Shown here: piece by piece, positions 17,667 to 35,057 of the stretch
Position numbering within the stretch: the first letter of the stretch is position 1
Layout: every line of letters begins with the position of its first letter
Source of the DNA: a virus
Virus record (IMG/VR): IMGVR_UViG_3300027752_001294
Coordinates: 1-35,057 of that record
DNA: 35,057 nucleotides
Direction: 5' to 3' (one strand)
Program-made: the position numbers and the translations under genes
Notes under the pieces: generated by a model
The model's database searches: none
The model's input: only the letters and a program-made list of their open reading frames with translations
What the model was told of the DNA's origin: nothing

Positions 17667-17696
17667 ATAGTAGCACTTAATTAGGAAGAAACGAAA

Positions 17697-18626
17697 ATGC
17701 CAGATTTAGTAAGAGGTACCAATGATCCCCAGGGTGCTTCTAGAATTACCGCAGCTAACTACAACGATCTACAGTCGTCTGTTGCAGATTTACTTGGTGA
17801 TGGATTTGCTGATACTGGTTATGGACAAGAACCTGTTAGTTCAGCACTATTAGCATCAGACATAGTAAGAGCCGAACACATGAATTTGTTAAGAGACGAT
17901 ATTAACAGAATCCAAGTACACCAAACTGGAAGTCTTAGTTCGTTATTAGAACTTGTTCCAGGAGAAAGAGTTAGTGCTAATGACATCGGCGGCATAGTTG
18001 ATAAAGGATTCAACCAATTTGTTGCTGTTGTTAATATTTTAATAGCTAATAAAGATGTAGTTGATGGAACCCAAGTAACACTTGAAACAGCAACTACTAG
18101 TACACGTTTTGCAGCCTGGAATGGTAAAGTAGTACATAGTTTTACAGTAGCATTTGATAATGCTACACACAGACGTGCTTATTTTAACGCTGGCGGCCAA
18201 ATACAACTAAGTGCAACTATTGAAGGTGATACTACACAAAAAGGCGCAGACTGGAATTCTATATTAACAAATATGGGAACAATTAAGTTTAGTGCTAATA
18301 CAACTTCAAAAACAGGTTCGGCAGGAATATTACAACCTGTTGGTAATTATGATTTGACAACAAGTTATCAAAAGATATTCGAACGTAGAGGGCAAGCTGA
18401 TTACTACGCAGAAAATAGATTTTTTATATATGCTAAAGAAGTAAGCAATCAGGCAATTCAATTTAGTATAGAATTTGAGGACAACGACCAGGGCGACCCA
18501 AATGATGATGAATTAATCCGCGGCACAATAACTAGTATAGTTAAACAATTAAGACCAACCGGATCTTACGTAACTGTAAGCTCGCCATCATACAGCACAC
18601 AATCTGCATTATCTGAAGGAGATTAA
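17697..18626 (+). CDS. Virion structural protein (309 aa), first of a tandem paralogous pair
   Basis: The N-terminus (about 1-85) has DTGYGQEPVSS and EHMNLLRDDINRIQVHQTG. The C-terminal half has THRRAYFNAGGQIQLSA, WNSILTNMGTIKF, and later YAENRFFIYAK and FEFEDND-like segments (IEFEDNDQGD). The next gene shares every one of these blocks, so the pair arose by duplication. No enzymatic motif, signal peptide or membrane segment is visible. It is placed in the late structural operon behind an exact TATAAATA. I class it as a virion protein by context; whether it belongs to baseplate, neck or fibre is not known. Confidence 0.7.
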   Translation: MPDLVRGTNDPQGASRITAANYNDLQSSVADLLGDGFADTGYGQEPVSSALLASDIVRAEHMNLLRDDINRIQVHQTGSLSSLLELVPGERVSANDIGGIVDKGFNQFVAVVNILIANKDVVDGTQVTLETATTSTRFAAWNGKVVHSFTVAFDNATHRRAYFNAGGQIQLSATIEGDTTQKGADWNSILTNMGTIKFSANTTSKTGSAGILQPVGNYDLTTSYQKIFERRGQADYYAENRFFIYAKEVSNQAIQFSIEFEDNDQGDPNDDELIRGTITSIVKQLRPTGSYVTVSSPSYSTQSALSEGD

Positions 18627-18629
18627 TAC

Positions 18630-19782: not shown

Positions 19783-20130
19783 ATGGACGAGAGATTAGAA
19801 CAAGCGTTAGACTTTTCAAACTACATGGTTACATTAAATAACCAACGTAGAGTTATTCATGAACAATTTTTAGAAACTTGTGTACATTATTTAAATGGAG
19901 GCAAATTTTCTATAAGCCGAGATTTAATTACCTTTTGTCAAACACTACGACATAATGATCAAGATAGTGCAATTCTAATTGACGACAACAATACTCCTGT
20001 TGAAGTAGAAGATCTACAGAAATTTCTAGATGATATTCTTGATATTTACTTTACTACGTCTTATGAATATCTTGATGAATATAATAAAATTAAAAAGAAT
20101 AGAAAAGTAGAAGGTCTTGTTAATTTATGA
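19783..20130 (+). CDS. Small conserved phage protein of unknown function (115 aa)
   Basis: An acidic protein starting MDERLEQALDFSNYMVTLNN and predicted to be mostly helical. A basic/aromatic segment follows (residues 20-45), then D-x-x-x-I-L-I-D-D-N (about 60-69) and an acidic helix with EDLQKFLDDILDIYF (about 75-89). There is no catalytic motif, membrane span or signal peptide. The pattern resembles small uncharacterised proteins that recur near structural genes of marine T4-like phages (recollection, not searched). It is the first gene behind the sigma70-type promoter and overlaps the next gene by ATGA, so it is translationally coupled to the glycosyltransferase cassette. It could be a regulator, adaptor or structural accessory. 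Confidence 0.6.
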   Translation: MDERLEQALDFSNYMVTLNNQRRVIHEQFLETCVHYLNGGKFSISRDLITFCQTLRHNDQDSAILIDDNNTPVEVEDLQKFLDDILDIYFTTSYEYLDEYNKIKKNRKVEGLVNL

Positions 20131-20987
20131 GTAAAGGTGTACTATTATTTGCACAAAACAATCACTCAATTGATTATATTAAACAAGCAATATTTTGTGC
20201 TAAAAAAATTAAAAAACACCTTGGTATACCTGTAGCAATTGCCACAGACAATTCAGATTATCTAAAAGCTACATATCCTTATTACGAAAAATATATTAGT
20301 CATGTAATAGAGTTAGACTGGTACGAATGTAAACAAAAGCGCACATACCGAGATGGTACTATGAGCAAAAAAGATTTAGAATGGCGAAATCATGATCGTG
20401 CAACAGCATATGATATATCACCGTTTGACGAAACTATAGTAATGGATACTGATTTTATTATTGGTAATGATATTTTATTAAATGCATTTGATACAGACCA
20501 AGATTTTTTAATATTTCGTCACATAACAGATCTTAATATGGATAGGCCTGATGAATACAGGTTTAATAAAATTAGTGATCGAAGTATAGACATGTATTGG
20601 GCTACAATATTTTATTTTAAAAAGTCAGAAGGCATGAAACGGTTCTTTGATCTTATAACTCACATTAAAGATAATTGGAATTTTTATAGACTTACGTATC
20701 AAATTGTAAATAAAACCTATAGAAATGATTTTGCATTTAGCATTGCAATACACATATTAAATGGTTTTCAGAGAACCAACTGGCCAAATGTATTACCAGG
20801 AAGACTATGGTTTACTAGCGATGCTGATGTGTTAGTAAAATTAGAAGACGAAACTTATACTTTTTTATTAGATAAAAAACATTGGGTAGGACATTATCAT
20901 GCAGGTTGTGTAAAAGATGTAAACATCCATATTCTAAATAAGTTTGCACTAGATAGATTTATTGACGAGGACTTAAAAAATGAGTAA
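20127..20987 (+). CDS. GT-A-type glycosyltransferase-like protein (286 aa)
   Basis: The protein opens with VLLFAQNN, helix YIKQAIFCAKKI, strand PVAIATD, and then SPFDETIVMDTDFI. D107-T-D109 forms a DxD-like metal/nucleotide-sugar motif after a hydrophobic strand, as in GT-A fold glycosyltransferases (GT8-like layout). W-A-T-I-F-Y-F-K and helix segments follow. The next gene has the same layout and an identical ATGAGTAAAGG start, so the two are duplicates. The ATG overlaps the preceding stop (ATGA). No signal peptide or membrane span is present, so it is expected to be cytoplasmic and to act on virion protein or glycan precursors. Donor and acceptor cannot be read from the sequence. Confidence 0.7.
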   Translation: MSKGVLLFAQNNHSIDYIKQAIFCAKKIKKHLGIPVAIATDNSDYLKATYPYYEKYISHVIELDWYECKQKRTYRDGTMSKKDLEWRNHDRATAYDISPFDETIVMDTDFIIGNDILLNAFDTDQDFLIFRHITDLNMDRPDEYRFNKISDRSIDMYWATIFYFKKSEGMKRFFDLITHIKDNWNFYRLTYQIVNKTYRNDFAFSIAIHILNGFQRTNWPNVLPGRLWFTSDADVLVKLEDETYTFLLDKKHWVGHYHAGCVKDVNIHILNKFALDRFIDEDLKNE

Positions 20988-21819
20988 AGGTTTTTGTTTA
21001 TTAGCACAAAATAATTCTAAAACAAACTATATTCGTCAAGCGTATGCACTTGCACTTAGTTTACATTTGTATAACAAAGGTCAGAAGATTAGCTTAATTA
21101 CTAATGACAAAGTTCCTACAGAATGGCAAGGCGTATTTGATCAAATAGTTCCTATTCCTTGGGACGACAATGCTGAGGACAGTGACTGGAAAATACAAAA
21201 TCGTTGGAAGGTGTATCATGCTAGTCCTTATGATGAAACTATTGTATTAGAAGCTGACATGCTAATTACATCAGATATAACACACTGGTGGAAAGAACTT
21301 TCAAAACGTGAACTATTTTTTGTTAGTAATGTTAGAACATATCGAGACGAAGTTGTAACTAGCAGATTTTATAGAAAAACATTTGACGCAAATGAATTAC
21401 CTAACTTATATAGTGCATTACATTACTTTAAAAAAGGCGATACAGCAAAAGAGTTTTATAACCTATTAGAAATTATTGTAAACAATTGGGCTTTGTTCTA
21501 TTCTAAATATGCGCCAAATGAATACCAAAAATGGTGTAGTATTGATGTGTCGATGGCCATCGCTAGTAAGATATTAGGAAACGAACACGATGTTACTGAT
21601 CCTAATAGTTTTATTACATTTACTCATATGAAGCCGCTTGTACAAGGATGGTATAACAAACCGGAAAAATGGACAAGGGTTACAGGAAAGTATTTTACTG
21701 AAGGTAAATTATTCTTAGGAAATTACTTGCAAAATAGAGTACTACATTATGTTGAAGATGAATTCTTAACAGATGAATTATTAGAGAAGATAGAAAATGG
21801 AACTACACTTTTACCTTAA
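20980..21819 (+). CDS. GT-A-type glycosyltransferase-like protein (279 aa), paralogue of the preceding gene
   Basis: It aligns with the preceding protein from the first residue: MSKG, LLAQNN, Y-I-R-Q-A, K-I-S-L-I-T-N-D, and S-P-Y-D-E-T-I-V-L. The DxD position reads E91-A-D93, so the first acidic residue is Glu rather than Asp. The later WCSIDVSMAIA segment corresponds to DFAFSIAIHIL of the paralogue. The ATG follows GACGAGG, and its 5' end overlaps the upstream gene by 8 bases. A sugar-transfer role is inferred. The E-x-D change may alter metal use or donor preference, or may be a harmless variant. Confidence 0.65.
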   Translation: MSKGFCLLAQNNSKTNYIRQAYALALSLHLYNKGQKISLITNDKVPTEWQGVFDQIVPIPWDDNAEDSDWKIQNRWKVYHASPYDETIVLEADMLITSDITHWWKELSKRELFFVSNVRTYRDEVVTSRFYRKTFDANELPNLYSALHYFKKGDTAKEFYNLLEIIVNNWALFYSKYAPNEYQKWCSIDVSMAIASKILGNEHDVTDPNSFITFTHMKPLVQGWYNKPEKWTRVTGKYFTEGKLFLGNYLQNRVLHYVEDEFLTDELLEKIENGTTLLP

Positions 21820-22375
21820 CTTTAAAGATGAAACAGGCGAAATTTGGAAATTAACAAATGAGTTAGATGTCTCTACACCTTACATTGAAATTAGTAGAGA
21901 AACAATGTTAGATTTTGCAAACGAAGTAAAGAAGATGGATGACTATATGGTTATTCCGTCCAGCGACAAAACATTAAAATATGAAATTGTTCTTAAACAT
22001 AAAGATTTAGATATTTTTGATGTAGACAAGAGTGTACATCATCTCCCAAAAGTAACTAGTGTAGACACTAACAATGCATTTATAATAAAACAAAATTTAG
22101 AAAGTGCAACGTGGACAATCAGTTTAACAAGTGAACTTAGAGAATTATTATCAAGCACTATGTATTACAAAGATAAAAATCAATACATATATGTTACACA
22201 AAAAGATAATCCAACAGTGTTATTAGATACACTTGATATAAAAATGTACAATGTGTTGTACTCAGAAAGTTTTAACATGACAGAACAAAATAAAAAGGTT
22301 GCTCAGAACCCCGATGTGAGTTTATACTGTGGTAAAGTATTTGAAAACTATTTGCATATTCAGGAGACAGTATGA
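21797..22375 (+). CDS. Protein of unknown function (192 aa)
   Basis: The ATG at 21797 lies inside the preceding gene (23-base overlap) with GAGAAG just upstream. The stop overlaps the next ATG (ATGA), so the gene is embedded in the operon by coupling at both ends. The predicted structure is beta-rich: NFKDETGEIWKL at the start, a YEIVLKHKDL strand, and a C-terminal KMYNVLYSESF segment. No Cys cluster, DxD motif or membrane segment is visible. I do not recognise a family. It could be a virion accessory protein or an acceptor/adaptor for the surrounding glycosyltransferases; nothing in the sequence decides. Confidence 0.55.
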   Translation: MELHFYLNFKDETGEIWKLTNELDVSTPYIEISRETMLDFANEVKKMDDYMVIPSSDKTLKYEIVLKHKDLDIFDVDKSVHHLPKVTSVDTNNAFIIKQNLESATWTISLTSELRELLSSTMYYKDKNQYIYVTQKDNPTVLLDTLDIKMYNVLYSESFNMTEQNKKVAQNPDVSLYCGKVFENYLHIQETV

Positions 22376-23265
22376 GTACTATAAAGGTAGTTGACCAAGA
22401 TATTATATTCTTATCGTATGATGAACCTAATGCAGAAAAAAACTATGCAGATTTGTGTAGTAAAGTACCTTGGGCTAAACGTGTACATGGTGTAGAAGGT
22501 AGTGACGCTGCACACAAAGCATGTGCTGACCTAAGTGAAACAGAATACTTTATTACTGTGGATGCAGACAACATTGTTGATCCAGAATTCTTAAATCAAG
22601 AAGTTGATTATGAAGCACTAGGATTATCAGCTGAACATGTGTTTAGTTGGTGTGGCAAGTTGTATGTTAACGGACTAATGTATGGTAACGGTGGACTTAA
22701 AATGTGGACACGTAAGTTTGTACACAATATGAAAACACACGAACATTCAGAAGAAGGCGATGAACGAGGCAAAGTAGAATTTTGCTTTGACGACAAGTAT
22801 TATCAGTTTAATGAAAACTTTAGTGTATCTTATACAAACGCAACACCTTGGCAGGCTTGGAGAGCAGGTTTTAGAGAAGGTGTTAAAATGAGTTTAGATC
22901 AAGGATCTAAAGTAGAAGATTTACGCAGAGTATGGTGGCAAAACTATCAACGCTTACTTGTTTGGAGCCAGATAGGTGCCGATGTTAAAAACGGTATATG
23001 GAGTATACTAGGCGCACGACAAGGATGTTATCTAACAAACTGTACACCTTGGGACTATGCTAATGTACGTGACTTTGAATGGCTAAACAACTTTTGGGAA
23101 AAAGAAGTAAAGGGTGTAGATCCGCTCGAAACATCTATTCATTTAGGAACTGAAATACTAAAAGGAACGGGTGCAGATATATCAACTACTCCTCTTGACG
23201 AACAACAAAGTAAGTTTTTTAAAAGTGTGTATCAAAACACTCCGAGGATAATTAGAACTCGATGA
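22372..23265 (+). CDS. Glycosyltransferase-like protein, GT2/GT-A type (297 aa)
   Basis: Residues 10-20 read DIIFLSYDEPN, and 36-43 KRVHGVEG. Hydrophobic FITVDADN follows, with D64-A-D66 as the nucleotide-sugar/metal DxD. G-N-G-G-L-K (about 105-110) is a candidate acceptor-side loop. The C-terminal half is helical, with AWRAGFREG, a W-rich segment, and DFEWLNNFW. The short protein at 32213 repeats this architecture, including the C-terminal AW(R/K)xxFRE and DF(E/D)WL blocks. The ATG overlaps the upstream stop, and an AGGAGA ribosome site is present. Cytoplasmic sugar transfer is inferred; the substrate is unknown. Confidence 0.7.
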   Translation: MSTIKVVDQDIIFLSYDEPNAEKNYADLCSKVPWAKRVHGVEGSDAAHKACADLSETEYFITVDADNIVDPEFLNQEVDYEALGLSAEHVFSWCGKLYVNGLMYGNGGLKMWTRKFVHNMKTHEHSEEGDERGKVEFCFDDKYYQFNENFSVSYTNATPWQAWRAGFREGVKMSLDQGSKVEDLRRVWWQNYQRLLVWSQIGADVKNGIWSILGARQGCYLTNCTPWDYANVRDFEWLNNFWEKEVKGVDPLETSIHLGTEILKGTGADISTTPLDEQQSKFFKSVYQNTPRIIRTR

Positions 23266-24644
23266 GCAATGAACAACGCATACAAATACTAGAAGAAAAG
23301 CGTGAAAAAATAAACAGTGTAAGTTGTTCATTTTGTACAGCCAAGTGGCTACAAACTACTCTAATGTTACAGAATGGTTACAATCACAGTTGTCATCATC
23401 CTGCACCGCACAAGATTCCGTTACATGAAATTGAAATAAATCCAGCAGCATTGCACAACAGTAAGTTTAAAAAAGAACAACGTGCTAAGATGCTTAATGG
23501 AGAACGTCCTAAAGAGTGTGGATACTGTTGGAAGATTGAAGACTTAGATAAAAACTATTTTAGTGATAGGCATTATAAAACAAGTGATACGTGGGCTTGG
23601 GATAGATTTGAAGATATTGCTAAAAGCAATCCACAAGACGATGTGTATCCAAGTTACTTAGAAGTATCATTTAGTAATGCTTGTAACTTTGCGTGTGCAT
23701 ATTGTTCACCTGAGATTAGTAGCAAGTGGATGGAAGATATCAAGAAGAACGGTGAGTACCCAACTAAGCACGGTTCGCATAATTTAGATTACTTAAAGTC
23801 TAGCGGAAAGATGCCTTACAAGAATAGAGAACATAATCCTTATGTAGAAGCATTTTGGAAATGGTTTCCTGACGCACTTCCACATTTAAAAGTATTACGC
23901 ATTACCGGCGGTGAGCCAACTATGAGTAAAGATACTTGGAAACTTTTAGATTATTTACTTGAACATCCGCAGCAAGGTTTAGACATTGCAATCAATACAA
24001 ATGGCTGTGTAGAAAATGCACTAATTGATAAACTTATTTTTAAAGTTAATCAACTTGCCGAAGTAGGTGTTAAGGTTGATGTATATACTAGTTTAGAAAG
24101 TACAGGTGCACAAGCAGAATATGCTCGAGATGGTCTAGATTTTTTTAAATGGCTTAAAAATGTAGATAGAATACTTAAAGAAACTAACTGTACAGTTGCA
24201 ATGATGACAACTATCAACATATTAAGTATCCCTAGTTTTCTTGACTTTATGATGACTGTAATGGACTTTCGTAAAGAGTATAACAATAGTTTTGACGTTA
24301 ATAGAATACCACTGAGTATTAACATTATGCATTGGCCACCGCATTTACAGTGTACACTACTTGATGTTGATTATCGTACAAAAACTGCAAACACGATTGA
24401 AAAAGTATGCGAACAATGGTTAAAGTATTATACCAAAGAAAAATATGCTAGATTATACTTAGAAGAATTTGATCAGATAAAAAGATTGTGTGATTACTTG
24501 CGCAACACAGAGCCAGCAATAGAACATAGAGCCGACTTTGTAAGATACATACATGCATACGATAAGAGAAGAAACAAGAACTTTGCGGATACATTTCCGC
24601 AATATATTCATTTAGTCGAGGAATGGGATGCCAAAACAACCTGA
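23262..24644 (+). CDS. Radical SAM protein with N-terminal twitch-type auxiliary cluster domain (460 aa)
   Basis: The radical SAM motif is C141-x3-C145-x2-C148 (CNFACAYC), with a GGEP motif at 216-219, for the [4Fe-4S] cluster that cleaves S-adenosylmethionine. Upstream of it is a second Cys set: C25, C44 (in SCHHP), C86 and C89 (in ECGYCW), around an LHN-x-K-x-K-x-x-x-R segment. This is a SPASM/twitch-like module placed at the N-terminus instead of the usual C-terminus. I recall such proteins being named 'twitch domain-containing radical SAM protein'. The ATG overlaps the upstream stop by ATGA. The next gene is a close duplicate. SPASM/twitch enzymes mostly modify peptides or small molecules; the substrate here is unknown. 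Confidence 0.93.
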   Translation: MSNEQRIQILEEKREKINSVSCSFCTAKWLQTTLMLQNGYNHSCHHPAPHKIPLHEIEINPAALHNSKFKKEQRAKMLNGERPKECGYCWKIEDLDKNYFSDRHYKTSDTWAWDRFEDIAKSNPQDDVYPSYLEVSFSNACNFACAYCSPEISSKWMEDIKKNGEYPTKHGSHNLDYLKSSGKMPYKNREHNPYVEAFWKWFPDALPHLKVLRITGGEPTMSKDTWKLLDYLLEHPQQGLDIAINTNGCVENALIDKLIFKVNQLAEVGVKVDVYTSLESTGAQAEYARDGLDFFKWLKNVDRILKETNCTVAMMTTINILSIPSFLDFMMTVMDFRKEYNNSFDVNRIPLSINIMHWPPHLQCTLLDVDYRTKTANTIEKVCEQWLKYYTKEKYARLYLEEFDQIKRLCDYLRNTEPAIEHRADFVRYIHAYDKRRNKNFADTFPQYIHLVEEWDAKTT

Positions 24645-26076
24645 AGAAAATCTACAACAGTACCGAGAACGAGTTTTAGACACTAAGTCTGAAAGTTTCT
24701 GTGGAGCAAAATGGTTTAATGCTACTACTTGGTTAGGTAGTGGAACAACCGCTAGTTGTCATCACCCGCCAGCACATCAGATTCCATTAATTGAATTACA
24801 CGACAATCCGTCTGCAATTCATAATACCAAGCATAAGAAAGAAATGCGCCGCATGATGCAAAAAGGCGAGCGTCCTAGCGAATGTGAATATTGCTGGAAA
24901 ATGGAAGATATGAAAAAGGATGCTGTTAGTGATAGAACTTTTAAAAGCATTATCTATTCAGATGAACAATTACAGCAAGCGTATGAAGCAGATGCTAACG
25001 ATAATACTAATCTTAAAACTTTTGAAATTGCGTTTGACAGAACATGTAATTTAGCATGTAGTTATTGTAATGCAAGTTTCTCAACTACATGGGCCAAAGA
25101 TATTAAGAAGAATGGCGAGTATACAAACTTAGTAAGTGATGGTGCTGGTGCATATAAGCAAGACGGTAGTTGGACACAGCCGTATAAGAACGACGACGAT
25201 AATCCTTACATACAAGCATTTTGGAAATGGTGGGACAGTGGTCTAGCAGATAGTTTAGAAGAACTACGTGTTACAGGTGGCGAACCATTAATGAGCGGAA
25301 ACACCTGGAAGTTGTTTGATTGGTTTAATGAGCAAGATACTGATATGCGATTTGCTATTAATAGTAACTTAATTGCTAAAGATGATATTATCGATAAGTT
25401 AATTCTAAAAACCCAAGGTATGAAACATTTTGACTTGTATACTAGTTGTGAAGCAACCGGCGCACAAGCAGAATACATACGTGATGGCTTAGATTACGAA
25501 CAATGGCTTAGAAATATTAAGCGTATGTTAGTAGAAGGTAACTGTAATGGTATTAACATTATGATGACTATTAACAGTTTGTGCTTGTTTAGTATTACTG
25601 ACTTTTTAGATGAGGTATATAAACTAAAAGAACTTACACAAAGTAGAACACCAACAGTAAGTTTAAACTTATTGCGTTTTCCAAGTTTTCAAAGTCCATT
25701 AGCACTACCTAACCATATTAAAGATTATTTACATAATCAATTTAGTACATGGTGGGAAGCACACAAAGATGACATTGGTTGGCATGAGTTTGAAAAAGCA
25801 AGTATTGAACGTTTGATAGATTACTTAGTAACTGTAGATGCTCCGCATAGACGTACAAGTAACCCTACTACACTATGGCGTGACTTTAAAACATTTTATG
25901 CACAGTATGATGTACGTAGAAACAAGAGTCTAAGTGTATTTCCTAAAATATTAACAGACTGGGTTGATAGTATTCCAGATACAGATGCAAGCATTATAGA
26001 ACTTGCAGAAAAAGAAGGCTGGATATTAAAACCTAGCTCAAGGAATATTGATGATCCCCTTGCGTCCTACGATTAA
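24628..26076 (+). CDS. Radical SAM protein with N-terminal twitch-type domain (482 aa), duplicate of the preceding gene
   Basis: The N-terminal Cys set sits at exactly the same residues as in the preceding protein: C25, C44 (SCHHP), C86 and C89 (ECEYCW). The radical SAM motif is C140-x3-C144-x2-C147 (CNLACSYC), with GGEP at 217-220. Both proteins also share KDIKKNGEY after the motif, A-E-Y-x-R-D-G-L-D, and a C-terminal Y-D-(V/K)-R-R-N-K block. This indicates tandem gene duplication followed by divergence. The start ATG at 24628 lies within the upstream gene (17-base overlap), with a GAGGA ribosome site. Both catalytic motifs are intact, so the duplication probably produced enzymes with different substrates or successive steps. 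Confidence 0.93.
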   Translation: MPKQPEENLQQYRERVLDTKSESFCGAKWFNATTWLGSGTTASCHHPPAHQIPLIELHDNPSAIHNTKHKKEMRRMMQKGERPSECEYCWKMEDMKKDAVSDRTFKSIIYSDEQLQQAYEADANDNTNLKTFEIAFDRTCNLACSYCNASFSTTWAKDIKKNGEYTNLVSDGAGAYKQDGSWTQPYKNDDDNPYIQAFWKWWDSGLADSLEELRVTGGEPLMSGNTWKLFDWFNEQDTDMRFAINSNLIAKDDIIDKLILKTQGMKHFDLYTSCEATGAQAEYIRDGLDYEQWLRNIKRMLVEGNCNGINIMMTINSLCLFSITDFLDEVYKLKELTQSRTPTVSLNLLRFPSFQSPLALPNHIKDYLHNQFSTWWEAHKDDIGWHEFEKASIERLIDYLVTVDAPHRRTSNPTTLWRDFKTFYAQYDVRRNKSLSVFPKILTDWVDSIPDTDASIIELAEKEGWILKPSSRNIDDPLASYD

Positions 26077-27406
26077 TTTATATTACGATAAAATTATAGA
26101 TGACATGCCAGTACCTAATGGTGTGTCAGACTATAAGTTTAGTAGTGACACTCATAGAATCCCTATGAATAAGTCTAAGGTATCGCCAATCAATTTTATT
26201 ACAATATTGTTTAATACATTAAAGGTACTAAACGTAGAACGAGTTAACTTATTTTCTAGTAATGAAACAGCAAAGAACTTATTTTATCCTTTAGAATTAA
26301 ATGAAGGCACTTCTTGGTATGATGCTGAATTTGAAGACTATATTCCTATTAAATCTATTAATAAGATTAGAAAAGGAAAAATGAAGTTATTAATATTTGC
26401 TCCAACACTATCACATGACTATAGTATCATGTGGAAACTACGGACAAAGCTCGATACTTTAGGTAGCAAAGGCATTACACGAGATAAGATTTATATTGTA
26501 TTAGGCGATATAAGTAGGTCATATAGAAAATGCTTTGATAATCCAAACGTATACGGAATTGACTGGTGGCAAATATATGCGCAACTTGCATATAAAAGTA
26601 GATACGGCCAAGAAGATTACTTTTGGGCTTTTAGAAATCCGACATTTCATCCTTTAATGCCAGAACAACTTGAGAAAGAAGACTTTAAATTTGAAGATTG
26701 GAAACCTAAGCGCATATTCACAGCATTTACTGGTAATAGGGCATTACACAACACAGCACTTATTAGTGAATTGATATACACAGGCCTTGATGCCCATGGC
26801 GAATACAGTTATAATCTAACCGGTGACTTAACTCCTAAAGATTATGATAATTTTAGAATAATTGATAAAACCCGTAGTGACGACTACATTGCAAAAAAGA
26901 AAGAAATAATTAATAACTTAACATCTGTAAAGCAACTTGACAAGACACTAGCTGAAATATCATCTCGTCCTTTAAACGTTGATAAACAGTACTACCAAGA
27001 TAGTCTTATTTCTATTGTTAGCAGTTCTTTCTCTCCAATGTTTGATCAACACTACTTAGATGAAATTGATGTATGTGCGCCAGGGCTTGGTATATGGCGT
27101 CAAATAGCCAAAGGACACCCATTCATGGCACTCGGTTGTTTAAATACTATGGGATACATAAGCGGCGAAGGATATTTTCTTCCTAACCCGATCACAAACC
27201 AGTTTTATGATAGAGTTGCAAAAACTCCTCAAAAAGTTAAACTAATGTGTGATAGTATTAGTAGAATGGCAGAACTTAGTGAAACTGAAATACAGGATAA
27301 GGTACAAGAATTAATACCCTTTATGGAAAAAAATAAACAGAAGTTTTTCAATATGAAGAATCAACGTAAATTTGAAAAACTATTCGGAGAAATGAATTAT
27401 GAATGA
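26051..27406 (+). CDS. Glycosyltransferase-like protein, GT-B/exostosin-like C-terminal half (451 aa)
   Basis: I place the start at the ATG 26051, with AAGGA ten bases upstream, rather than at the TTG three bases earlier. It overlaps the preceding gene by 26 bases. The N-terminal 150 residues contain a hydrophobic K-L-L-I-F-A-P-T strand. The middle has FTAFTGNRALHNTALI. The C-terminal part has SLISIVSSSFSP, then a helix, then IAKGHPFMALGCLN, G-Y-(F), and a F-Y-D-R-V tail. A serine-rich donor-site strand followed by 'hPF..lG' is what I associate with exostosin/GT47-like phage and marine bacterial glycosyltransferases. The usual T-E-K in that helix is not obvious here, so it is a divergent member. 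Confidence in the family is moderate. Confidence 0.5.
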   Translation: MIPLRPTINLYYDKIIDDMPVPNGVSDYKFSSDTHRIPMNKSKVSPINFITILFNTLKVLNVERVNLFSSNETAKNLFYPLELNEGTSWYDAEFEDYIPIKSINKIRKGKMKLLIFAPTLSHDYSIMWKLRTKLDTLGSKGITRDKIYIVLGDISRSYRKCFDNPNVYGIDWWQIYAQLAYKSRYGQEDYFWAFRNPTFHPLMPEQLEKEDFKFEDWKPKRIFTAFTGNRALHNTALISELIYTGLDAHGEYSYNLTGDLTPKDYDNFRIIDKTRSDDYIAKKKEIINNLTSVKQLDKTLAEISSRPLNVDKQYYQDSLISIVSSSFSPMFDQHYLDEIDVCAPGLGIWRQIAKGHPFMALGCLNTMGYISGEGYFLPNPITNQFYDRVAKTPQKVKLMCDSISRMAELSETEIQDKVQELIPFMEKNKQKFFNMKNQRKFEKLFGEMNYE

Positions 27407-28664: not shown

Positions 28665-29484
28665 AGGAAATGATTTTACACCATATCTTAAAACTTCACC
28701 TGCTAACATAAAGACAGTCGGTGATCTTCGAGTGTTTGGTAAAGTACATCAAGTTTTTAAACAGAGACTTCCTTTTGTTAAGCAAGGGTTTGAATTACTA
28801 GCATGTAATCAAGCAGAAGAAGAATTGTTAAATCCTAACACCGATTGGAAGTATTATATTAATGAATATAATTTTAGAAATCACTGGGACTTAGAATCTA
28901 AAAAAGAAACAATAGGATTCTTTGGTTGTAGCTTTACATTCGGCGAAGGCATACACAATGATGACATGTTTGTTAATATTGTTAGTGAATCATTAGATAT
29001 GAATCCTATAAATGTAGGTATGGGCGGAGCTGGTTTAGAAAGAACAGCACGAACCTTTGCAAGTGCAGTAAACGTAATTAATTTTGATTATGTTGTACTA
29101 ACACTTCCGGCTTGGTTACGTCAGATGCATTTAACAAAGCAAGGTGAAATAATTAACATTATTCCGTATTGGCCTCATAACGATTACGAAAAGTTAAATG
29201 AATTATTTTCAACAGTAGATGAGGATTTTTTCATCAATCAAGCAATATCGTATATTAACTGGATAGGCGATATTGCTAAAGCTAACAACATAAAAATAAT
29301 ATTAGCTTCGTGGGATCATCCGTTGAATGAATTATGTAAACTTATCTTTCCTGAAGATACAATTAAACCTTTTCCTAATATTGATGATAAGTGTGCAAGA
29401 GATAAAATGCACCCTGGTCCAAAGTCTCAAGCGGCACATGCAGAGCAGATTATAAAGGCATTTCATGATAGAGCTTGGGTTTAG
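28657..29484 (+). CDS. SGNH/GDSL hydrolase-like protein (275 aa)
   Basis: A strand and turn GFFGCSFTFGEG places S92 as the block I nucleophile, preceded by Gly-Cys rather than Gly-Asp. NVGMGGAG (about 119-126) matches block II with the oxyanion Gly. ARDKMHPG near the C-terminus gives D249 and H252 of block V. The block III G-x-N-D is not clearly present; VLTLPAW lies where it would be, so catalysis may be atypical. SGNH enzymes usually hydrolyse or transfer acyl/acetyl groups on sugars or lipids, which suits a glycan-modification cassette. There is no signal peptide, so it acts in the cytoplasm. Its ATG overlaps the radical SAM stop by 8 bases. Confidence 0.72.
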   Translation: MARGNDFTPYLKTSPANIKTVGDLRVFGKVHQVFKQRLPFVKQGFELLACNQAEEELLNPNTDWKYYINEYNFRNHWDLESKKETIGFFGCSFTFGEGIHNDDMFVNIVSESLDMNPINVGMGGAGLERTARTFASAVNVINFDYVVLTLPAWLRQMHLTKQGEIINIIPYWPHNDYEKLNELFSTVDEDFFINQAISYINWIGDIAKANNIKIILASWDHPLNELCKLIFPEDTIKPFPNIDDKCARDKMHPGPKSQAAHAEQIIKAFHDRAWV

Positions 29485-30433
29485 AAATATCAATAACGAT
29501 ATTAAGTACGTAACAATTAAACCAGATAATACTGAATTAGCAAACGTATGGCTAAGCCAACTCGATAGGTTATTAGAAACACATCAAAAAAAGATATTTC
29601 AAAAGAATTTTAGTTTGTTAGGAGTTCATAATAATAATAGAACAGTAGATCATATATGTAATGATTTAGATAGAAGTATTGCAACGATTAATTACTATAG
29701 TGATTACAAAATAGTAAACAACTTTGGTGCATTGCGTAGTGAAAATAATCAACAATTACTAAATGACTTACATCATCATTTCGAAACAATGCAGGGACAA
29801 CTTTGGAACCCCGGAAATGAATTAACAAAAGCAAATGGACATACTAGGTTAGCAATTTGTTATCTAAATCATTGTTGCCACGAACTCGAAGCATGGTACG
29901 AAACAACAGATATAGAAGCAGACGGATATCGCAATGGTTACTTTTATTATAATTTATTAGGTATACAAGAGCGCATTGAATTAGAACCAAAGTTTAAAAA
30001 ACAGTTTACTAAAAACGTTGAAGACGGAATGGTGTACTTACATTATGCACAAACTGGCAAAACTTGGTACGAAGCATATCTCGATAATGATGATGTAGTT
30101 ACAGCTGATGGTATTTCAGAACATCGTGTAATTAGTGGTGAATTTAATTGTTACTTTGGTACAGGGTATGAATTGCCATCAGACGATAAGTTTACAAGTT
30201 GGTTAGAGTCAAAAGGTGTTGATCCTAAAGATGAACAACTAGCATTAGGATATGCACCAGTTGGTAAAATACAAAATCTGCCTGACTTAGAAGCCCAAGA
30301 ATTTTTTAAAGAGTATACAGACTTTTATAGTATTGAATTTAATCGTAAGCGTATTGAGTATGACTTTAGACACAATGATGACTTTTATGTTAATCTTCTA
30401 ACAGAAATTTGGGACAAGTGGGGACAAACATGA
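29465..30433 (+). CDS. Protein of unknown function (322 aa)
   Basis: Starts at an ATG inside the preceding gene (20-base overlap). It is soluble and acidic, with a Trp/Tyr/His-rich middle: LHHHFETMQGQLWNPG near residues 102-117 and LNHCCHELEAWYE near 133-145. Then comes YLHYAQTGKTWYEAYLD (about 191-207), and the protein ends in DFYVNLLTEIWDKWG. I do not recognise a named family. The conserved-looking H-H-H and C-C-H clusters might bind a metal, but no known arrangement is present. The context of radical SAM, SGNH and glycosyltransferase genes suggests a shared pathway. Its stop is fused to the next ATG, so it is probably coupled to the next unknown gene. Confidence 0.5.
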   Translation: MIELGFRNINNDIKYVTIKPDNTELANVWLSQLDRLLETHQKKIFQKNFSLLGVHNNNRTVDHICNDLDRSIATINYYSDYKIVNNFGALRSENNQQLLNDLHHHFETMQGQLWNPGNELTKANGHTRLAICYLNHCCHELEAWYETTDIEADGYRNGYFYYNLLGIQERIELEPKFKKQFTKNVEDGMVYLHYAQTGKTWYEAYLDNDDVVTADGISEHRVISGEFNCYFGTGYELPSDDKFTSWLESKGVDPKDEQLALGYAPVGKIQNLPDLEAQEFFKEYTDFYSIEFNRKRIEYDFRHNDDFYVNLLTEIWDKWGQT

Positions 30434-31233
30434 TTTTTAAAACCCTCCCTCATAGTGACTCTCACCCTAGTTTATTTTTTAAATATATGCAACCTGGTGA
30501 AAAAATAGGTTTAGCAACAGTTGACAAAGACTTACTTTGTTATGATACTATTCATAATTTAAAAAGTGAAATTAATAATTTTTTGTCGTATGGTATACAC
30601 AGTAATCTAAACTGGAATACTGTAGATATTCATACTAAGCTATATAAAGACAGTTACAAAGTTCCTATAGAAAATTATTGTAAGTTGGCTTGGTTAACAC
30701 ATGATTATATAAAAAATAAATCATTTAAACATCCAGTTGGAATTCATTGGGATATGCAATCAAAAAAATGGATAATACATCCGGGAGGATCTCGACAAAA
30801 AATTATACATTTGTTTCATCAAGGTCCTTTAAAAGTTTTAGCTTTTAATACTGGAGGAGTTAAATTATTATTTGACAAGACTTTTTTAGATTATGATGAT
30901 ATGAAACAATACTTTAATTGTCCTGAAATGTATCTTTGTCTAGTAGCAGACCAAGGTAGCCTTATACCGCACATACACTTTAATAAGGAACGTACTATTA
31001 TAAATTCAGTACACAGATATTACATAAAATTAAAAAAGTTTTTTACAAAAACTAAATTAGTTGCTAATTTCGATTTAACTGAGTTTGGATATACTGTTCC
31101 TAAAACATATAAAAATACTATTAATATTACTATAGAAGATTCAACAAGTTTAAAACAACAAATTCGAGCATTGTGCCTAGTGCCTAACTTTGATACATTT
31201 AATAAACACGGAGTAAAAATTGAGCGTACCTGA
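30430..31233 (+). CDS. Protein of unknown function (267 aa)
   Basis: I choose the ATG at 30430, which forms ATGA with the upstream stop, over an in-frame TTG at 30409 inside the upstream gene. The protein is basic, rich in Lys, His and aromatic residues. VGIHWDMQSKKWIIHPGGSRQ (at most 20 residues quoted in parts: HWDMQ, IIHPGGSRQ) lies in the middle, followed by IIHLFHQGPLKVLAFNTGG. An LCLVADQGSLIPHIHF segment comes later. The 'hHPGgSR' loop looks like a conserved ligand-binding or phosphate-binding turn, but I cannot assign a family. It overlaps the next radical SAM gene by 14 bases. A role alongside its neighbours is inferred only. Confidence 0.5.
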   Translation: MIFKTLPHSDSHPSLFFKYMQPGEKIGLATVDKDLLCYDTIHNLKSEINNFLSYGIHSNLNWNTVDIHTKLYKDSYKVPIENYCKLAWLTHDYIKNKSFKHPVGIHWDMQSKKWIIHPGGSRQKIIHLFHQGPLKVLAFNTGGVKLLFDKTFLDYDDMKQYFNCPEMYLCLVADQGSLIPHIHFNKERTIINSVHRYYIKLKKFFTKTKLVANFDLTEFGYTVPKTYKNTINITIEDSTSLKQQIRALCLVPNFDTFNKHGVKIERT

Positions 31234-32191
31234 TTTAGAAAGAGCTGTAGTAGAAGTATTTGGCGGCTGCAATTACAAGTGTCAAATGTGTCCACAGACT
31301 ACCGGACGTGGCAAAGACTGGACACGCAAGATGCCGTTTGATATGTTTGAAGACATATTAGATCAGTTGCCGGGCAAGCCTGTAATTAACTTAGAAGGTT
31401 CAGGTGAGCCTACTATGGCAAAGGACTTACCACGTTACATTGAAGCATGTACCAAGCGTGGCCTGCCTAGCTTTATGTACAGCAACGGAAGTTTCTTTAG
31501 TGGACACTTTATGCAAGACTGTGTAGATGCAGGACTTAGTTTTGCAAGATTCAGTTGTATAGGCTATGACAAAGACAAGTATAAAGAATGGATGTCGATT
31601 GATAACTTTGAACTATTAAAAACAAATGTTATAAAGGCAAAACAATATATTAAAGAAACAAACAGCAAGTGCGAAATTAGTAGCTATCATTTAATATTAG
31701 ATAACAATCAAATTGAATACGAAGTTGATCAATATAGAAATAACTTTATAGGTCCTACTGGCACAATAGGATACATATGGAAGATGCATAATTGGAGTGG
31801 TAACTACCAGCCATTATACGTGCGTGATCCTAGTAAGCGTAGATCATGCGGTAGACCATTTGCTCCAGAGATTACAATACGTTCAGGTGGCATTGATGGA
31901 TTAAAAGGTGCGGTTACTCCTTGCTGTCAAACAATGGGACCACCTAATGAAAGTAAAAGCGTACTAGGGCATATTGAAACTACTAGCATAGAAGATATTT
32001 GGTACGGTGATGCGTATAACAAGTTGCGTAAAGATCACGAAATGGGTGACTTTCCTGACTACTGTCAAGGATGTGACTTTCTATACGAAGACCCAGAAGT
32101 CTTAGTATGGTCAAATGATAAAACAGCAAGTACAGATCATATGTTAGGTACAAACTTTAGTTTGCGTGACTTTATGATTGACAAGAAATAG
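31220..32191 (+). CDS. Radical SAM protein with C-terminal SPASM domain (323 aa)
   Basis: A TTG start at 31220 is supported by GGAG seven bases upstream and because the next in-frame ATG lies inside the Cys motif. The motif comes very early, C17-x3-C21-x2-C24 (CNYKCQMC), with EGSGEP near residues 60-65. The C-terminal SPASM set is C210 (SCGRP), C235-C236 (TPCC), and C282/C285 (YCQGC), with G-H-I-x-x-x-x-I-x-x-I-W between. This is the classical SPASM order, unlike the three upstream enzymes. SPASM enzymes modify ribosomal peptides, protein side chains or sugars/aminocyclitols. It is the last gene before the second sigma70-type promoter, which overlaps its 3' end. Confidence 0.93.
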   Translation: MSVPDLERAVVEVFGGCNYKCQMCPQTTGRGKDWTRKMPFDMFEDILDQLPGKPVINLEGSGEPTMAKDLPRYIEACTKRGLPSFMYSNGSFFSGHFMQDCVDAGLSFARFSCIGYDKDKYKEWMSIDNFELLKTNVIKAKQYIKETNSKCEISSYHLILDNNQIEYEVDQYRNNFIGPTGTIGYIWKMHNWSGNYQPLYVRDPSKRRSCGRPFAPEITIRSGGIDGLKGAVTPCCQTMGPPNESKSVLGHIETTSIEDIWYGDAYNKLRKDHEMGDFPDYCQGCDFLYEDPEVLVWSNDKTASTDHMLGTNFSLRDFMIDKK

Positions 32192-32206
32192 AAAATGCTG
32201 TATAAT
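32178..32206 (+). promoter_or_regulatory. Second consensus sigma70-type promoter, predicted to make a leaderless mRNA
   Basis: TTGACA (32178-32183) and TATAAT (32201-32206) are perfect, with exactly 17 bases between. Both promoters share the stretch GCT-(A/G)-TATAATATATA. Counting the last -10 base as -7 puts +1 at 32213, the A of the ATG of the next gene. No ribosome site lies between the -10 box and that ATG. Confidence 0.72.
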
Positions 32207-32212
32207 ATATAA

Positions 32213-32890
32213 ATGTATGACATTGTATTCATAAGTTACAACGAGCCTAATGCAGATGCAACCTGGCAAGCGTTAAAGGATAACTTTCCAAGAGCAAAGC
32301 GTATTGATGGTGTAAAAGGAATTCACCAAGCACATATTGCCGCCGCTAAGAAATGTTTTACTAAAATGTTTTGGGTAGTTGATGCTGATGCACAAATTCT
32401 TGACACATTTAACTTTGATCATAAAGTAGATGAATATGATTTAGAAACTGTACATGTGTGGCGTAGTCGCAATCCAGTAAACAATCTATTGTACGGATAT
32501 GGCGGAGTAAAGTTGTTACCACGTAAACTTACACTAAACATGGATACAACGAAGCCAGACATGACTACAAGTATTAGTGAGTATTTTAAAGCAATGCCTG
32601 AAACATCTAATGTTACAGCATTTAACACAAATGAGTTTGAAGCATGGAAAGGTGCATTTAGAGAATGTACTAAACTAGCAAGTAAAACTATAGACAGACA
32701 AAACGAGGATGAAACAAATGAAAGACTCAGAATATGGACAACAGTGGGAGAAGACCGTCCCTTCGGCAAGTACGCTATTAAAGGTGCTATCGCTGGCAGG
32801 GAGTTTGGGCTTTCTAGCAAGCCTAATTTACAATTAATAAACGACTTTGATTGGTTAAGGACACAGTTTGATGCAACATGTAATGAATGA
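32213..32890 (+). CDS. Short glycosyltransferase-like protein (225 aa), paralogue of the 297-aa protein
   Basis: It begins MYDIVFISYNEPNAD, aligning with DIIFLSYDEPNAE of the longer protein at 22372. It then has AKRIDGVKG, and V-V-D57-A-D59 as the DxD motif. GYGGVKL lies where the paralogue has GNGGLKM. The C-terminal AWKGAFREC and DFDWLRTQF blocks are also shared. It is about 70 residues shorter, through a reduced middle and loss of the last 45 residues. The alignment fixes the start at 32213 even though it has no ribosome site and no leader. It overlaps the next gene by 20 bases. A GT-A-type sugar transfer is inferred; the substrate is unknown. Confidence 0.68.
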   Translation: MYDIVFISYNEPNADATWQALKDNFPRAKRIDGVKGIHQAHIAAAKKCFTKMFWVVDADAQILDTFNFDHKVDEYDLETVHVWRSRNPVNNLLYGYGGVKLLPRKLTLNMDTTKPDMTTSISEYFKAMPETSNVTAFNTNEFEAWKGAFRECTKLASKTIDRQNEDETNERLRIWTTVGEDRPFGKYAIKGAIAGREFGLSSKPNLQLINDFDWLRTQFDATCNE

Positions 32891-33866
32891 TTACAACAAG
32901 ATACCTTGGCAAGATATTACTGAGTTTGGGCAGAAAACCCTCCTAAAGAGCCATCTTTTCACAGTTTCGTGGATCCTGGCTAGATTTTGTAATTATTCAT
33001 GCAGTTATTGCTGGCCATACGCTAGATCTAGTACCCCTGACCACCAAGATTTAGAATTGTACTTAAACACCCTAGATAGTATCAAAGCACAGGCTCGTGC
33101 AAACGGCTTTACAGACTTCCATTTTAGTTTCTCAGGCGGCGAACCCACAGCGTATAAATACTTTAATAAAGTAGTTGAGTACTATGCTAACGATGAGCTA
33201 CCGGAATATCAAAGCATACATATGACAACAAATTTAAGCCCAGGACACAAATGGTGGGCTAATTTTATTGACAATACTCAACACCTTAAACGTAGAAGCA
33301 TAACAGCAAGTTATCATGCTGAATTTGCTAATGAACAAGAGTTTGGAGATAAGTGTCTCCAATTAATAGAAGGAGGAGTATATGTTACGATCAATCAAGT
33401 TATGGTTCCTGAAATGTTTCAAGAGCTTTACGAACGCTTACAACGATTTGCCGCCAGAGGCATTAATGTTACTCTCAAGCCCCAGTCCGATCCCACTGCT
33501 TCCCATGTTGTGCATGGATACAATGATGCACAAATACAACAAATGCAATCTGGCTTCCCCCAACAATGGGACGGAAAGCAAATTGCCCAAATTGCACTCT
33601 ACGATAAAGACAGAAACGAATACGAATTAGATCAAGCAGAACGTTTTAATGCCTTTGGATTTAATAAGTTTAAAGGATGGGAATGTAACGCAGGCTATCA
33701 AGGCTGCGTTATACGTGAGAACGAAGTTAAGCGCAGCTACAGTTGCCACGATGAATCCTTAGGCACATTAGACGGCGGGTTTGAGCTCTTTAAAGCACCA
33801 GCTAAGTGTATTACTCCTAGCTGTGTAAGCAGTGCAGATAGCAAACTACCAAAGAGGAAGTTATGA
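32871..33866 (+). CDS. Radical SAM protein with C-terminal Cys-rich auxiliary region (331 aa)
   Basis: I choose the ATG at 32871, with TAAGGA about nine bases upstream, over the adjoining TTG at 32868. The radical SAM motif is C40-x3-C44-x2-C47 (CNYSCSYCW), with FSGGEP at 88-92. A Cys set near the C-terminus, C272, C279, C292, C313 and C318, fits one auxiliary [4Fe-4S] cluster of SPASM/twitch type, though the spacing is not canonical. Between 33360 and 33640 the base composition is much richer in G+C than in neighbouring genes, and codons such as CCC, TCC and CTC appear. This suggests a different recent history. It is coupled to the dehydrogenase-like gene by ATGA. Substrate unknown. Confidence 0.9.
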   Translation: MQHVMNDYNKIPWQDITEFGQKTLLKSHLFTVSWILARFCNYSCSYCWPYARSSTPDHQDLELYLNTLDSIKAQARANGFTDFHFSFSGGEPTAYKYFNKVVEYYANDELPEYQSIHMTTNLSPGHKWWANFIDNTQHLKRRSITASYHAEFANEQEFGDKCLQLIEGGVYVTINQVMVPEMFQELYERLQRFAARGINVTLKPQSDPTASHVVHGYNDAQIQQMQSGFPQQWDGKQIAQIALYDKDRNEYELDQAERFNAFGFNKFKGWECNAGYQGCVIRENEVKRSYSCHDESLGTLDGGFELFKAPAKCITPSCVSSADSKLPKRKL

Positions 33867-34600
33867 ATAAATTTGGAATATTAGGATATGGTTATGTAGG
33901 TAAGGCCACACACAAAGGCCTGCTTAATGATGAAAAAGCTATTGTGCATGATATTACATTTAATACAGAAAGAGAGATTCTAAAAGATGCTCATACAGTG
34001 TTTGTATGTATACCAACAGTAACACAAACAGATATTAATATTGTTATTTCTGAAATACAGCAAATACAAGAATTTAATCTTTTAGCAACATTTATTATTC
34101 GTAGCACATTGCCTTTAGGATCATGTGAACGTATACAAAAAGAAGTTGGCAATATAATCTATATACCAGAGTTTTTACGTGAACGTTATTGGGATACAGA
34201 TTGCTTTAAACGCCCGTTGGTTGTAGGTAGTGATAACAAGTCTTTGCCTCAATGGTTATTAGATGAAGAAATTAAAACTTGTTCTACTAATGAAGCAGAA
34301 CTAGTAAAAATGTATTCAAATAATTTTGCAGTAATGCGCATTGCATTTGCAAACGTATTTTATGATTTGTCAGAAAACGTCGGTGCTGATTATAGTAAAG
34401 TATTAGATATGTACTTAGACGTGCAACAAGACCAAACTTATATGGATGTGCCTGGTCATGACGGAACAAGAGGCTTTGGAGGTAAGTGTTTGCCTAAGGA
34501 TCTAGATTTCTTAATTTCTACGTTAGATGTACAAGGTATAAATTCAACAGTCTTTAAAGAAATAAAAAAGTTAAACAAAGAGTGGCAAAATGAAGGTTGA
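33863..34600 (+). CDS. UDP-glucose/GDP-mannose dehydrogenase-like protein lacking the C-terminal domain (245 aa)
   Basis: N-terminal Rossmann GYGYVG (residues 8-13) binds NAD. V-C-I-P-T and IRSTLPLG follow, then PEFLRER (102-108). Catalytic-region residues appear intact: K149 and N153 in ELVKMYSNN, and C209 in FGGKCLPKD. Family enzymes convert a nucleotide-sugar 6-alcohol to the uronic acid in two NAD-dependent steps and are usually about 400-450 residues. Here the protein ends 35 residues after the catalytic Cys, so the C-terminal nucleotide-sugar-binding domain is absent. The stop lies beside the next ATG, so this is not a sequencing break. It probably is a reduced phage form; full activity is uncertain. 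A sugar-nucleotide role suits the cassette. Confidence 0.78.
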   Translation: MNKFGILGYGYVGKATHKGLLNDEKAIVHDITFNTEREILKDAHTVFVCIPTVTQTDINIVISEIQQIQEFNLLATFIIRSTLPLGSCERIQKEVGNIIYIPEFLRERYWDTDCFKRPLVVGSDNKSLPQWLLDEEIKTCSTNEAELVKMYSNNFAVMRIAFANVFYDLSENVGADYSKVLDMYLDVQQDQTYMDVPGHDGTRGFGGKCLPKDLDFLISTLDVQGINSTVFKEIKKLNKEWQNEG

Positions 34601-35057
34601 TATACAAGATGTATTATTTTGGATGGATGCCATTCGTAACAGTGAAGATCGCTATCGTACCCTTGAAAGTTTTTGGAAAGGGCAAGTAAACAGCAAAGTA
34701 TGGTTAGCTAAGAACCTAATAGGATTTGTACCTGTTAGACCGTTAAATATCGTCATATACGGTGGTTGGAACGGTGTGCTGGCAAGTATACTCTTTAACT
34801 CTAACATTGCTGCACAGCACATTACAAGCGTTGATATAGACCCTGTATGTGAAGATATAGCAAACACAGTAAACAAGCGTCACGAGATACAAGGTAAGTT
34901 TAGTGCGGTAACAGCAGATATGTGCGAATACACTAATAATGCTGATGTAGTTATTAATACAAGCTGTGAACACGTTACGCAAGAACAATACGAACAATGG
35001 TTAAGTAATCAACCAGACGATGCAATATTTGTAATACAGAGTAATAACTATTTTGAC
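34590..35057 (+). CDS. Class I SAM-dependent methyltransferase-like protein, 3' partial
   Basis: The ATG at 34590 overlaps the preceding stop by 11 bases. The frame stays open for 156 codons to the window edge, with no stop. Residues about 53-64 read NIVIYGGWNGVL, a motif I (G-x-x-x-G type) S-adenosylmethionine-binding loop. After it, ITSVDIDP (about 78-85) gives the acidic residue of motif II, and VTADM (about 107-111) fits the adenine-binding strand. ADVVINTSCEH (about 118-128) sits where the catalytic strand lies. The start of the protein is helical. The methyl acceptor is unknown, but a surface sugar or protein substrate would fit the neighbouring genes. Confidence 0.75.
   Translation, partial: MKVDIQDVLFWMDAIRNSEDRYRTLESFWKGQVNSKVWLAKNLIGFVPVRPLNIVIYGGWNGVLASILFNSNIAAQHITSVDIDPVCEDIANTVNKRHEIQGKFSAVTADMCEYTNNADVVINTSCEHVTQEQYEQWLSNQPDDAIFVIQSNNYFD

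Follow-up and report, generated by a model that had tools for sequence, protein, structure and literature searches.

The virus-derived DNA analysed here (the window) is the whole 35,057 bases of IMG/VR record IMGVR_UViG_3300027752_001294, probably a fragment, and carries five radical S-adenosylmethionine (SAM) genes in a tightly packed island directly right of its fibre genes. We tentatively read this island, at a probability of roughly 0.4, as part of a T4-like phage adhesion or host-recognition island whose products would mature a surface protein or glycopeptide. Three enzymes with an N-terminal twitch domain (g13, g14 and g16), together with a partner protein (g18), would use SAM-derived radicals to alter a peptide or protein by epimerisation, cross-linking, oxidation or a similar reaction. 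The GT8-like glycosyltransferases (GTs) g09 and g10 would add host-supplied sugars to the same target, and g17, g20, g22 and g24 may tailor it further. The likeliest target would be the fibre or adhesin proteins encoded directly upstream; this division of labour and late co-expression are presumed. We know of no virus shown to use a whole set of radical SAM enzymes for maturing proteins or glycans of its own, and our literature search found no study showing this.

Five intact radical SAM genes in a continuous gene train

From position 19,783 rightward, the window holds 17 open reading frames (ORFs) on the + strand (g08 to g24, Table 1); 15 of the 16 junctions overlap and the remaining gap is 21 bases. 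An earlier note on this DNA had described a cassette of five radical SAM genes bearing the motifs for the radical SAM cluster and an auxiliary cluster; the five genes and the radical SAM motif were borne out, and auxiliary cysteines are candidates in four of the genes. All five are ORFs on the + strand. Three of them, g13, g14 and g16, are members of the N_Twi_rSAM family by the curated NCBIfam cut-off for NF033640 (170 bits); g20 and g22 are PF04055 enzymes outside that family (36 and 40 bits). Against plain PF04055, g13 and g16 score over the Pfam cut-off and g14 below it (22.2 bits versus 29.5). The gene g14 is an old paralog of g13 (38% identity).

All aligned orthologs (15 to 21 loci per gene, with 16-17 for g13, 17-20 for g14 and 21 for g16) retain the cysteines of the CxxxCxxC motif; for g13, g14, g16 and g20 they also retain the candidate auxiliary cysteines. 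In g13, the radical SAM cysteines C141, C145 and C148 and the candidate auxiliary ligands C25, C44, C86 and C89 are kept in 17/17 and 16/16 aligned loci, and all 12 cysteines of g20 are conserved in the 17 or 18 loci aligned. Compared with three relatives, the ratio of nonsynonymous to synonymous substitution rates (dN/dS) was 0.03-0.15 for the radical SAM genes, and no gene with a finite dS exceeded 0.33. The five radical SAM genes are intact and under purifying selection. A broken g14 was seen in one relative, G005 (16040-17375), where the pieces contain one TGA and one TAA and sequencing error is indistinguishable from decay.

The island is conserved in related viral contigs and extends beyond the window

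A scan with g16 yielded 21 related contigs, several of them near-copies. The gene order of the window is kept in 19 of these, as far as each reaches; the other two (L020 and L021) keep only the core g13-g14-g16-g17-g18. The island core is g13-g14-(g16)-g18, and g19, g20, g22, g23 and g24 come and go among the relatives. Scattering or decay of the genes, which the earlier note had named as evidence that would speak against it, was not found for the core, the broken g14 of G005 being the single case.

Past g24, 12 of the 13 loci that reach this gene run on into further radical SAM matches, and the remaining one ends there. PF04055 matches (E up to 0.001) number 13 in the 31 kb contig G012, 13 in the 79 kb G014 and 16 in the 186 kb T4-like G022. 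In G022, 14 of the 16 lie within 122-160 kb and 14 are over the Pfam cut-off, the island extending from about 117.6 to 162.6 kb, after a giant protein and fibre genes. The 519 kb contig G046 has 21 NF033640 matches, 16 of them over the cut-off. The window captures one part of a larger island. For this group of phages, these counts contradict the statement in the earlier note that phages rarely carry more than one or two radical SAM genes, as do the 12 such genes of TARA_ERS488813_N000010, a 183 kb T4-like environmental genome (PMC5332604, 2017); that such phages hoard radical SAM genes is already in print.

The T4-like status of the window is assigned by kinship, since the window lacks the capsid region. 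The T4 capsid family Gp23 is present in 8 of 14 relative contigs (G021, G022, G023, G024, G025, G027, G028 and G029), and was not found in the close relatives G002, G003, G005, G013 and G014, nor in G026, all of them shorter contigs. Their equal identities suggest that G022 to G026 represent a single phage in nearly identical copies.

To place the core in a wider set of viruses, we used the best 80 of at least 593 viral matches to g13/g14; the 80 loci reduce to 57 at 90% identity, of which 39 non-redundant loci have at least 5.5 kb upstream and 51 have enough flank for the g13-g14 count. Such scan-based counts, including those from the best 80 of 96 bacterial matches below, are not population frequencies, and the neighbourhood labels were assigned by BLAST against proteins of the window and of G014, by BLAST clustering and by eye. 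The genes g09, g10 and g12 occur together, in the same 24 of 39 loci, and a fibre-GT8-GT8-g12 block stands before g13 in 21/39, down to about 42% identity. The gene following g13 is g14 in 34 of 51 loci, and in 38 it lies at most five genes away.

Among isolate phages in INPHARED, g14, g18, g10 and g12 gave no match at the limits used, g16 gave 6 weak Vibrio phage records and g06 gave 11 weak Pseudomonas jumbo-phage records. These results cover the six genes named, and a nucleotide search with a 6.4 kb stretch returned none.

An orphan protein, g18, accompanies the N-terminal-twitch enzymes

Homologs of g18 were found in 43 viral loci, many of them near-copies, and 41 of these have at least one radical SAM gene in the locus. 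The other two are L074, which is cut just upstream of g17, and L083. In L083 (7953-10653), the g18 homolog is followed by two SGNH-like ORFs; two PF04055 matches lie outside this locus on the same 237 kb contig. At about 40-50% identity (L075 to L080), g18 stays with N_Twi-like genes; homologs of both g13 and g14 are present in L075, L076, L077 and L080, while L078 and L079 start further right. In L076 and L080 a tail-sheath-like ORF follows (by eye).

By sequence, g18 has no Pfam match and no credible PDB match, and its one marginal PHROG match (E 0.0016) is itself of unknown function. The scan of genome contigs with g18 gave no match, and its bacterial homologs (below) surfaced only through the g13/g14 scan. 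An AlphaFold model built from 27 sequences (predicted local distance difference test score, pLDDT, 89.1; predicted template modelling score, pTM, 0.88) is the one relied on here, a first model from 13 sequences having been poor (pLDDT 66). It predicts a barrel with a helical insertion that bears N100, H103, N135 and H139, which are invariant in the 27 sequences together with F106, F181, G188, G198 and D209. The best structural neighbour of the 27-sequence model was 6hix_BZ (Z 8.9, root-mean-square deviation 3.4, 144 aligned), and most of the listed neighbours were cyclophilins at modest Z (8.5 to 7). Foldseek retrieved ten phage proteins, all uncharacterised, with E values of 1e-6 or lower. 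A peptide-binding role is conceivable for g18.

Bacterial kin link the enzymes to PqqD and to a two-gene unit with g18

The best 80 of 96 bacterial matches to g13/g14 correspond to 78 loci (33-45% identity), nearly all from metagenome bins. By record title, 61 of the 78 belong to Bdellovibrionota groups, Oligoflexia included, and the rest to other or unnamed bacteria; L101 and L102 look like phage contigs and were labelled phage in the tree, and others may be phage too. PqqD-like genes, called with a profile from that cluster, occur in 17 of the 78 loci, 12 of them at most 100 bases from the N_Twi gene, and Pfam confirmed the two calls tested. Where PqqD partners a SPASM enzyme, it acts on peptides. 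Ten of the 78 loci also encode a mini-protein that bears a Peptidase_S74 domain (Pfam again confirmed two of two tested).

In four Bdellovibrionota loci, an N_Twi radical SAM gene, PqqD and an S74 protein of about 150 amino acids (aa) stand in a row (L158:7977-10186, L151:7986-10216, L148:1639-3891 and L174:7845-10234); the S74 protein has a conserved N-terminus of about 45 aa fused to the Peptidase_S74 chaperone domain. This row is possibly a peptide-maturation system in which the precursor is carried by a tail-fibre chaperone domain.

Four of the bacterial loci contain a g18 homolog: L129 (E 1e-52), L137 (8e-49), L111 (1e-13) and L110 (1e-11). In L129, from Bacteriovoracaceae, the radical SAM gene and g18 lie on the same strand with a 4-base overlap, forming a bare two-gene unit amid unrelated ORFs, with no GT beside it and no island. 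In L137, g18 comes 0.4 kb after the radical SAM gene, and the same 12.7 kb contains PqqD, S74 and transporter genes, the pair sharing about 11 kb with PqqD and the small S74-domain protein. The g18 gene of L111 adjoins the radical SAM gene in convergent orientation, and that of L110 is about 6.8 kb away. The PqqD adjacency and the bare unit of L129 make peptides or proteins, the fibres perhaps among them, more plausible as substrates than DNA or free polysaccharide.

In a FastTree phylogeny of 138 of 238 rows (72% identity filter, at most two rows per bacterial locus), there are at least 16 switches between phage and bacterial labels, and well-supported branches force 9 or more of them; mislabelled phage contigs would inflate this count. 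Judging from this tree, phages and these predatory bacteria seem to have exchanged g13/g14-type genes repeatedly. Bdellovibrionota as hosts of the carrier phages is a lead only.

The sugar side of the island is thinner, and host-envelope remodelling is the strongest rival

The earlier note had listed five glycosyltransferases, of which two can be supported. Combined in one profile, g09 and g10 match glycogenin (GT8; E 1.4e-6); singly, neither gene gave a match in a Pfam search. For g12 and g21 the signal is weak: two of the 11 members have a marginal PF00535 (GT2) match, at E 0.037 for the better one, and the PDB search gave nothing credible. As for g15, sequence searches gave no Pfam, PHROG or PDB match, which leaves its assignment as a glycosyltransferase unsupported; two stray weak Pfam matches occur among 7 members. 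The sugar dehydrogenase-like gene reported alongside them was borne out in g23 by PF00984, and this gene lies outside the conserved set: none of the 21 close relatives has a match to it, and 13 of them span the site, with g22 and g24 both present. Of the two other genes named there, the SGNH-like one (g17) has its motifs in the alignment and no Pfam match, and the methyltransferase-like one (g24) has a weak match below cut-off. Overall, the sugar side is thinner than had been claimed. Sugar-nucleotide activation (PF00483) was detected in 1 of 11 large contigs, so transfer of host sugars fits better than a whole polysaccharide pathway.

We weighed the possibility that the island remodels the host envelope, altering lipopolysaccharide or capsule with radical SAM enzymes acting on sugars, and so blocking superinfection or masking the cell. 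Enzymes of the BtrN, DesII and NeoN type show that radical SAM chemistry on sugars exists. GT8-like genes, an epimerase (PF01370) in 9 of 11 large contigs, and the ABC-type transporter, carbamoyltransferase-like and DegT-like genes near the bacterial kin (by eye) all suit such a role, which is also how the authors of PMC7029224 read the GTs of the pelagimyophage island. It is harder to square with the PqqD linkage of the bacterial kin, the radical SAM-g18 pair of L129 that stands without sugar genes, the 10 of 11 large contigs without sugar-nucleotide activation, the lack of conservation of g23 and the adjacency to fibre genes. We consider this explanation unlikely, although it is the best placed of the rivals.

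Weighing maturation of a surface protein

A co-inherited island under purifying selection beside fibre genes makes one or a few shared pathways a reasonable assumption. The modified glycan or glycopeptide proposed in the earlier note is partly supported, with a peptide side that is stronger than that note could know and the thinner sugar side described above. The cassette also lies where that note had put it, with the giant virion protein, the tail-collar gene and fibre-type genes to its left.

Several observations weigh against maturation of a surface protein or glycopeptide. The GT8/g12 block is missing within 8 kb upstream of g13 in 15 of 39 loci, and in 13 of 51 there is no g14 within five genes of g13. 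No PqqD-like gene was found in any viral locus searched, nor in the window. The bacterial g18 homologs of L110 and L111 are weaker, and in L111 and L137 g18 is on the strand opposite to the radical SAM gene. The bacterial loci hold genes for ABC-type transporter ATPase (22) and permease (18), carbamoyltransferase-like (15) and GT-like (22) proteins (by eye), with DegT-like genes in 9 of 78 (by eye), an assortment that fits polysaccharide too. The cyclophilin-like match of g18 became weaker with the better model (Z 8.9 and 7 chains at 8 or above, versus Z 10.9 and 81 chains), and Foldseek gave no significant PDB match with either model. Finally, g06 and g07 may be virion proteins, to judge from gene position, which is unproven.

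The first of these counts means that the island splits into separable modules: the two modules usually travel together but can part. Co-occurrence as one island, which the earlier note had proposed to test, is supported with that qualification.

A more specific version of the maturation pathway can be formulated, in which the g18 barrel, with its invariant His/Asn insertion, would present or co-process the peptide in place of PqqD, and g13, g14, g16 and g18 together with protein glycosylation would amount to a virus-coded, multi-step radical modification of virion adhesins. The bare unit of L129 strengthens the reading of g18 as a radical SAM partner acting on virion adhesins, and the weaker fold match of the better model weakens it; we regard this version as doubtful.

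Three other explanations fare worse. The island might release a small modified peptide, a toxin or signal akin to a ribosomally synthesized and post-translationally modified peptide (RiPP), from a precursor whose gene lies at another site in the genome. RiPP-like pathways typically employ SPASM/twitch enzymes, and the bacterial kin have PqqD and a small S74-domain protein; the absence of PqqD from viral loci and of any gap for a precursor gene in the tightly overlapping window island make this improbable. Equally improbable, in our view, is a pile-up in a variable region of unrelated radical SAM enzymes serving host metabolism or iron-sulfur (Fe-S) economy, without a common pathway. Partial separability of the modules and the Fe-S assembly genes reported in some T4-like environmental genomes (PMC5332604) would suit it, whereas order and co-occurrence are conserved at 40-60% identity and the A-type carrier PF01521 was found in 1 of 14 contigs.

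Radical SAM and GT genes do occur in phage base-modification pathways, and G021 has a TET/JBP gene about 11 kb from its radical SAM module, but hypermodification of phage DNA is very improbable here, with no hydroxymethylase of the PF00303 type in any of 14 contigs, among them the 186 kb G022, and TET/JBP (PF12851) in 1 of 14, absences that are not proof as the contigs may be fragments, and with an island that adjoins fibre genes.

If a fibre is the substrate, host-range chemistry in aquatic phages gains a further, new layer, and the N_Twi enzymes, g18 and the Bdellovibrionota clusters offer radical enzymology that is new and open to testing. If a host glycan is the substrate, this is still an unusually large viral surface-tailoring pathway.

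Other features of the window and its relatives

Left of the island, g01 has full-length relatives of 5,217 aa in G022 and 5,230 aa in G014, and in isolate phages it matches jumbo-phage structural proteins. A tail collar domain is present in g03; g05 has a tail-fibre PHROG match and a weak match to the autoproteolytic Peptidase_G2, below cut-off; g06 and g07 are a conserved pair without a family match.

Table 1. Genes of the window and their assignments.
Gene	Position	Strand	Assignment
g01	2..11359	+	3' part of giant virion protein; CBM5/12, FG-GAP and TIG domains (PHROG virion structural; Pfam on three pieces)
g02-g07	11381..19727	+	Fibre/adhesion-type genes
g08	19783..20130	+	115 aa; beside the GT8 pair in 21/24 GT8-bearing loci
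g09	20127..20987	+	GT8-like glycosyltransferase
g10	20980..21819	+	GT8-like glycosyltransferase
g11	21797..22375	+	192 aa, variable; no family over cut-off
g12	22372..23265	+	Possible GT-A type glycosyltransferase, weak (PF00535 E 0.075); related to g21 by alignment
g13	23262..24644	+	N-terminal-twitch radical SAM enzyme; NF033640 320 bits
g14	24628..26076	+	N-terminal-twitch radical SAM enzyme; NF033640 300 bits
g15	26048..27406 (or from ATG 26051)	+	452 aa, fast-evolving
g16	27399..28664	+	N-terminal-twitch radical SAM enzyme; NF033640 369 bits; PF13186 at residues 12-78
g17	28657..29484	+	SGNH-hydrolase-like by motif (GCSFTFGEG, D-x-x-HP) in an 8-member alignment
g18	29465..30433	+	Orphan protein linked to N_Twi radical SAM genes in phages and Bdellovibrionota
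g19	30409..31233	+	Optional gene; unmatched in many relatives spanning its place
g20	31220..32191	+	Radical SAM/SPASM, C-terminal SPASM; PF04055 42 bits and PF13186 37 bits, both over cut-off
g21	32213..32890	+	Possible glycosyltransferase; shorter g12 relative by alignment
g22	32868..33866 (or from ATG 32871)	+	Radical SAM; PF04055 41 bits, over cut-off
g23	33863..34600	+	Short (245 aa) nucleotide-sugar dehydrogenase; PF00984 E 8e-17
g24	34590..35057	+	Methyltransferase-like, weak (PF13649 E 0.0045, below cut-off); cut by window end

Further enzymes were noted in the relatives. G022 carries a tryptophan halogenase (PF04820, E 3e-100; L085:7475-9070, contig 27475-29070) near 2-oxoglutarate-Fe(II) oxygenase-like ORFs (below cut-offs), and two further halogenase-like ORFs at contig positions 31516 and 34862 (by eye). 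The TET/JBP dioxygenase domain of G021 (95858-96241, E 6e-26) is terminal on its contig and adjoins an ORF that looks GT2-like by eye. In the right part of the G014 island (about 61-65 kb), a QueC-like PP-loop protein (PF06508) and two genes of the Asp/Asn beta-hydroxylase family (PF05118) were found (L030:4111-4788, 4819-5478 and 7360-8010). Upstream of g13 in a distant phage, L080:254-1696 encodes GT7-family galactosyltransferase domains (PF13733/PF02709) and a Laminin_G-like region (below cut-off).

Comparison with known systems

Pelagimyophages are described as having host recognition clusters that contain glycosyltransferases and radical SAM cassettes (PMC7029224, 2020). Common to both systems are a T4-like phage and a variable island with fibres and glycosyltransferases; in the text available of that paper, the radical SAM genes receive a passing mention that leaves aside anatomy, partner proteins and substrate class. 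TARA_ERS488813_N000010 likewise has many radical SAM genes in one T4-like marine virus genome, of a size like that of G022, and the available text of PMC5332604 discusses them as Fe-S metabolism, without gene order or pathway. Enrichment of radical SAM and glycosyltransferase genes in Tasman Sea phage contigs is reported in PMC7150976. A phrase search for literature on phage-encoded radical SAM enzymes found none, and a search on NF033640 and the N-terminal twitch gave, judged by title, none on phages; the anatomy, the g18 partner, the module counts and the Bdellovibrionota/PqqD link were not found in the literature, searched by listing.

The NF033640 family, to which g13, g14 and g16 belong, has a model name that gives no substrate. 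A further known system is that of the PqqD-dependent SPASM radical SAM peptide maturases, such as PqqE. The phage enzymes differ from these in that viral loci are without PqqD, the window island is without a precursor gene and the twitch domain is N-terminal; they resemble them in that the bacterial kin of g13 and g14 adjoin PqqD.

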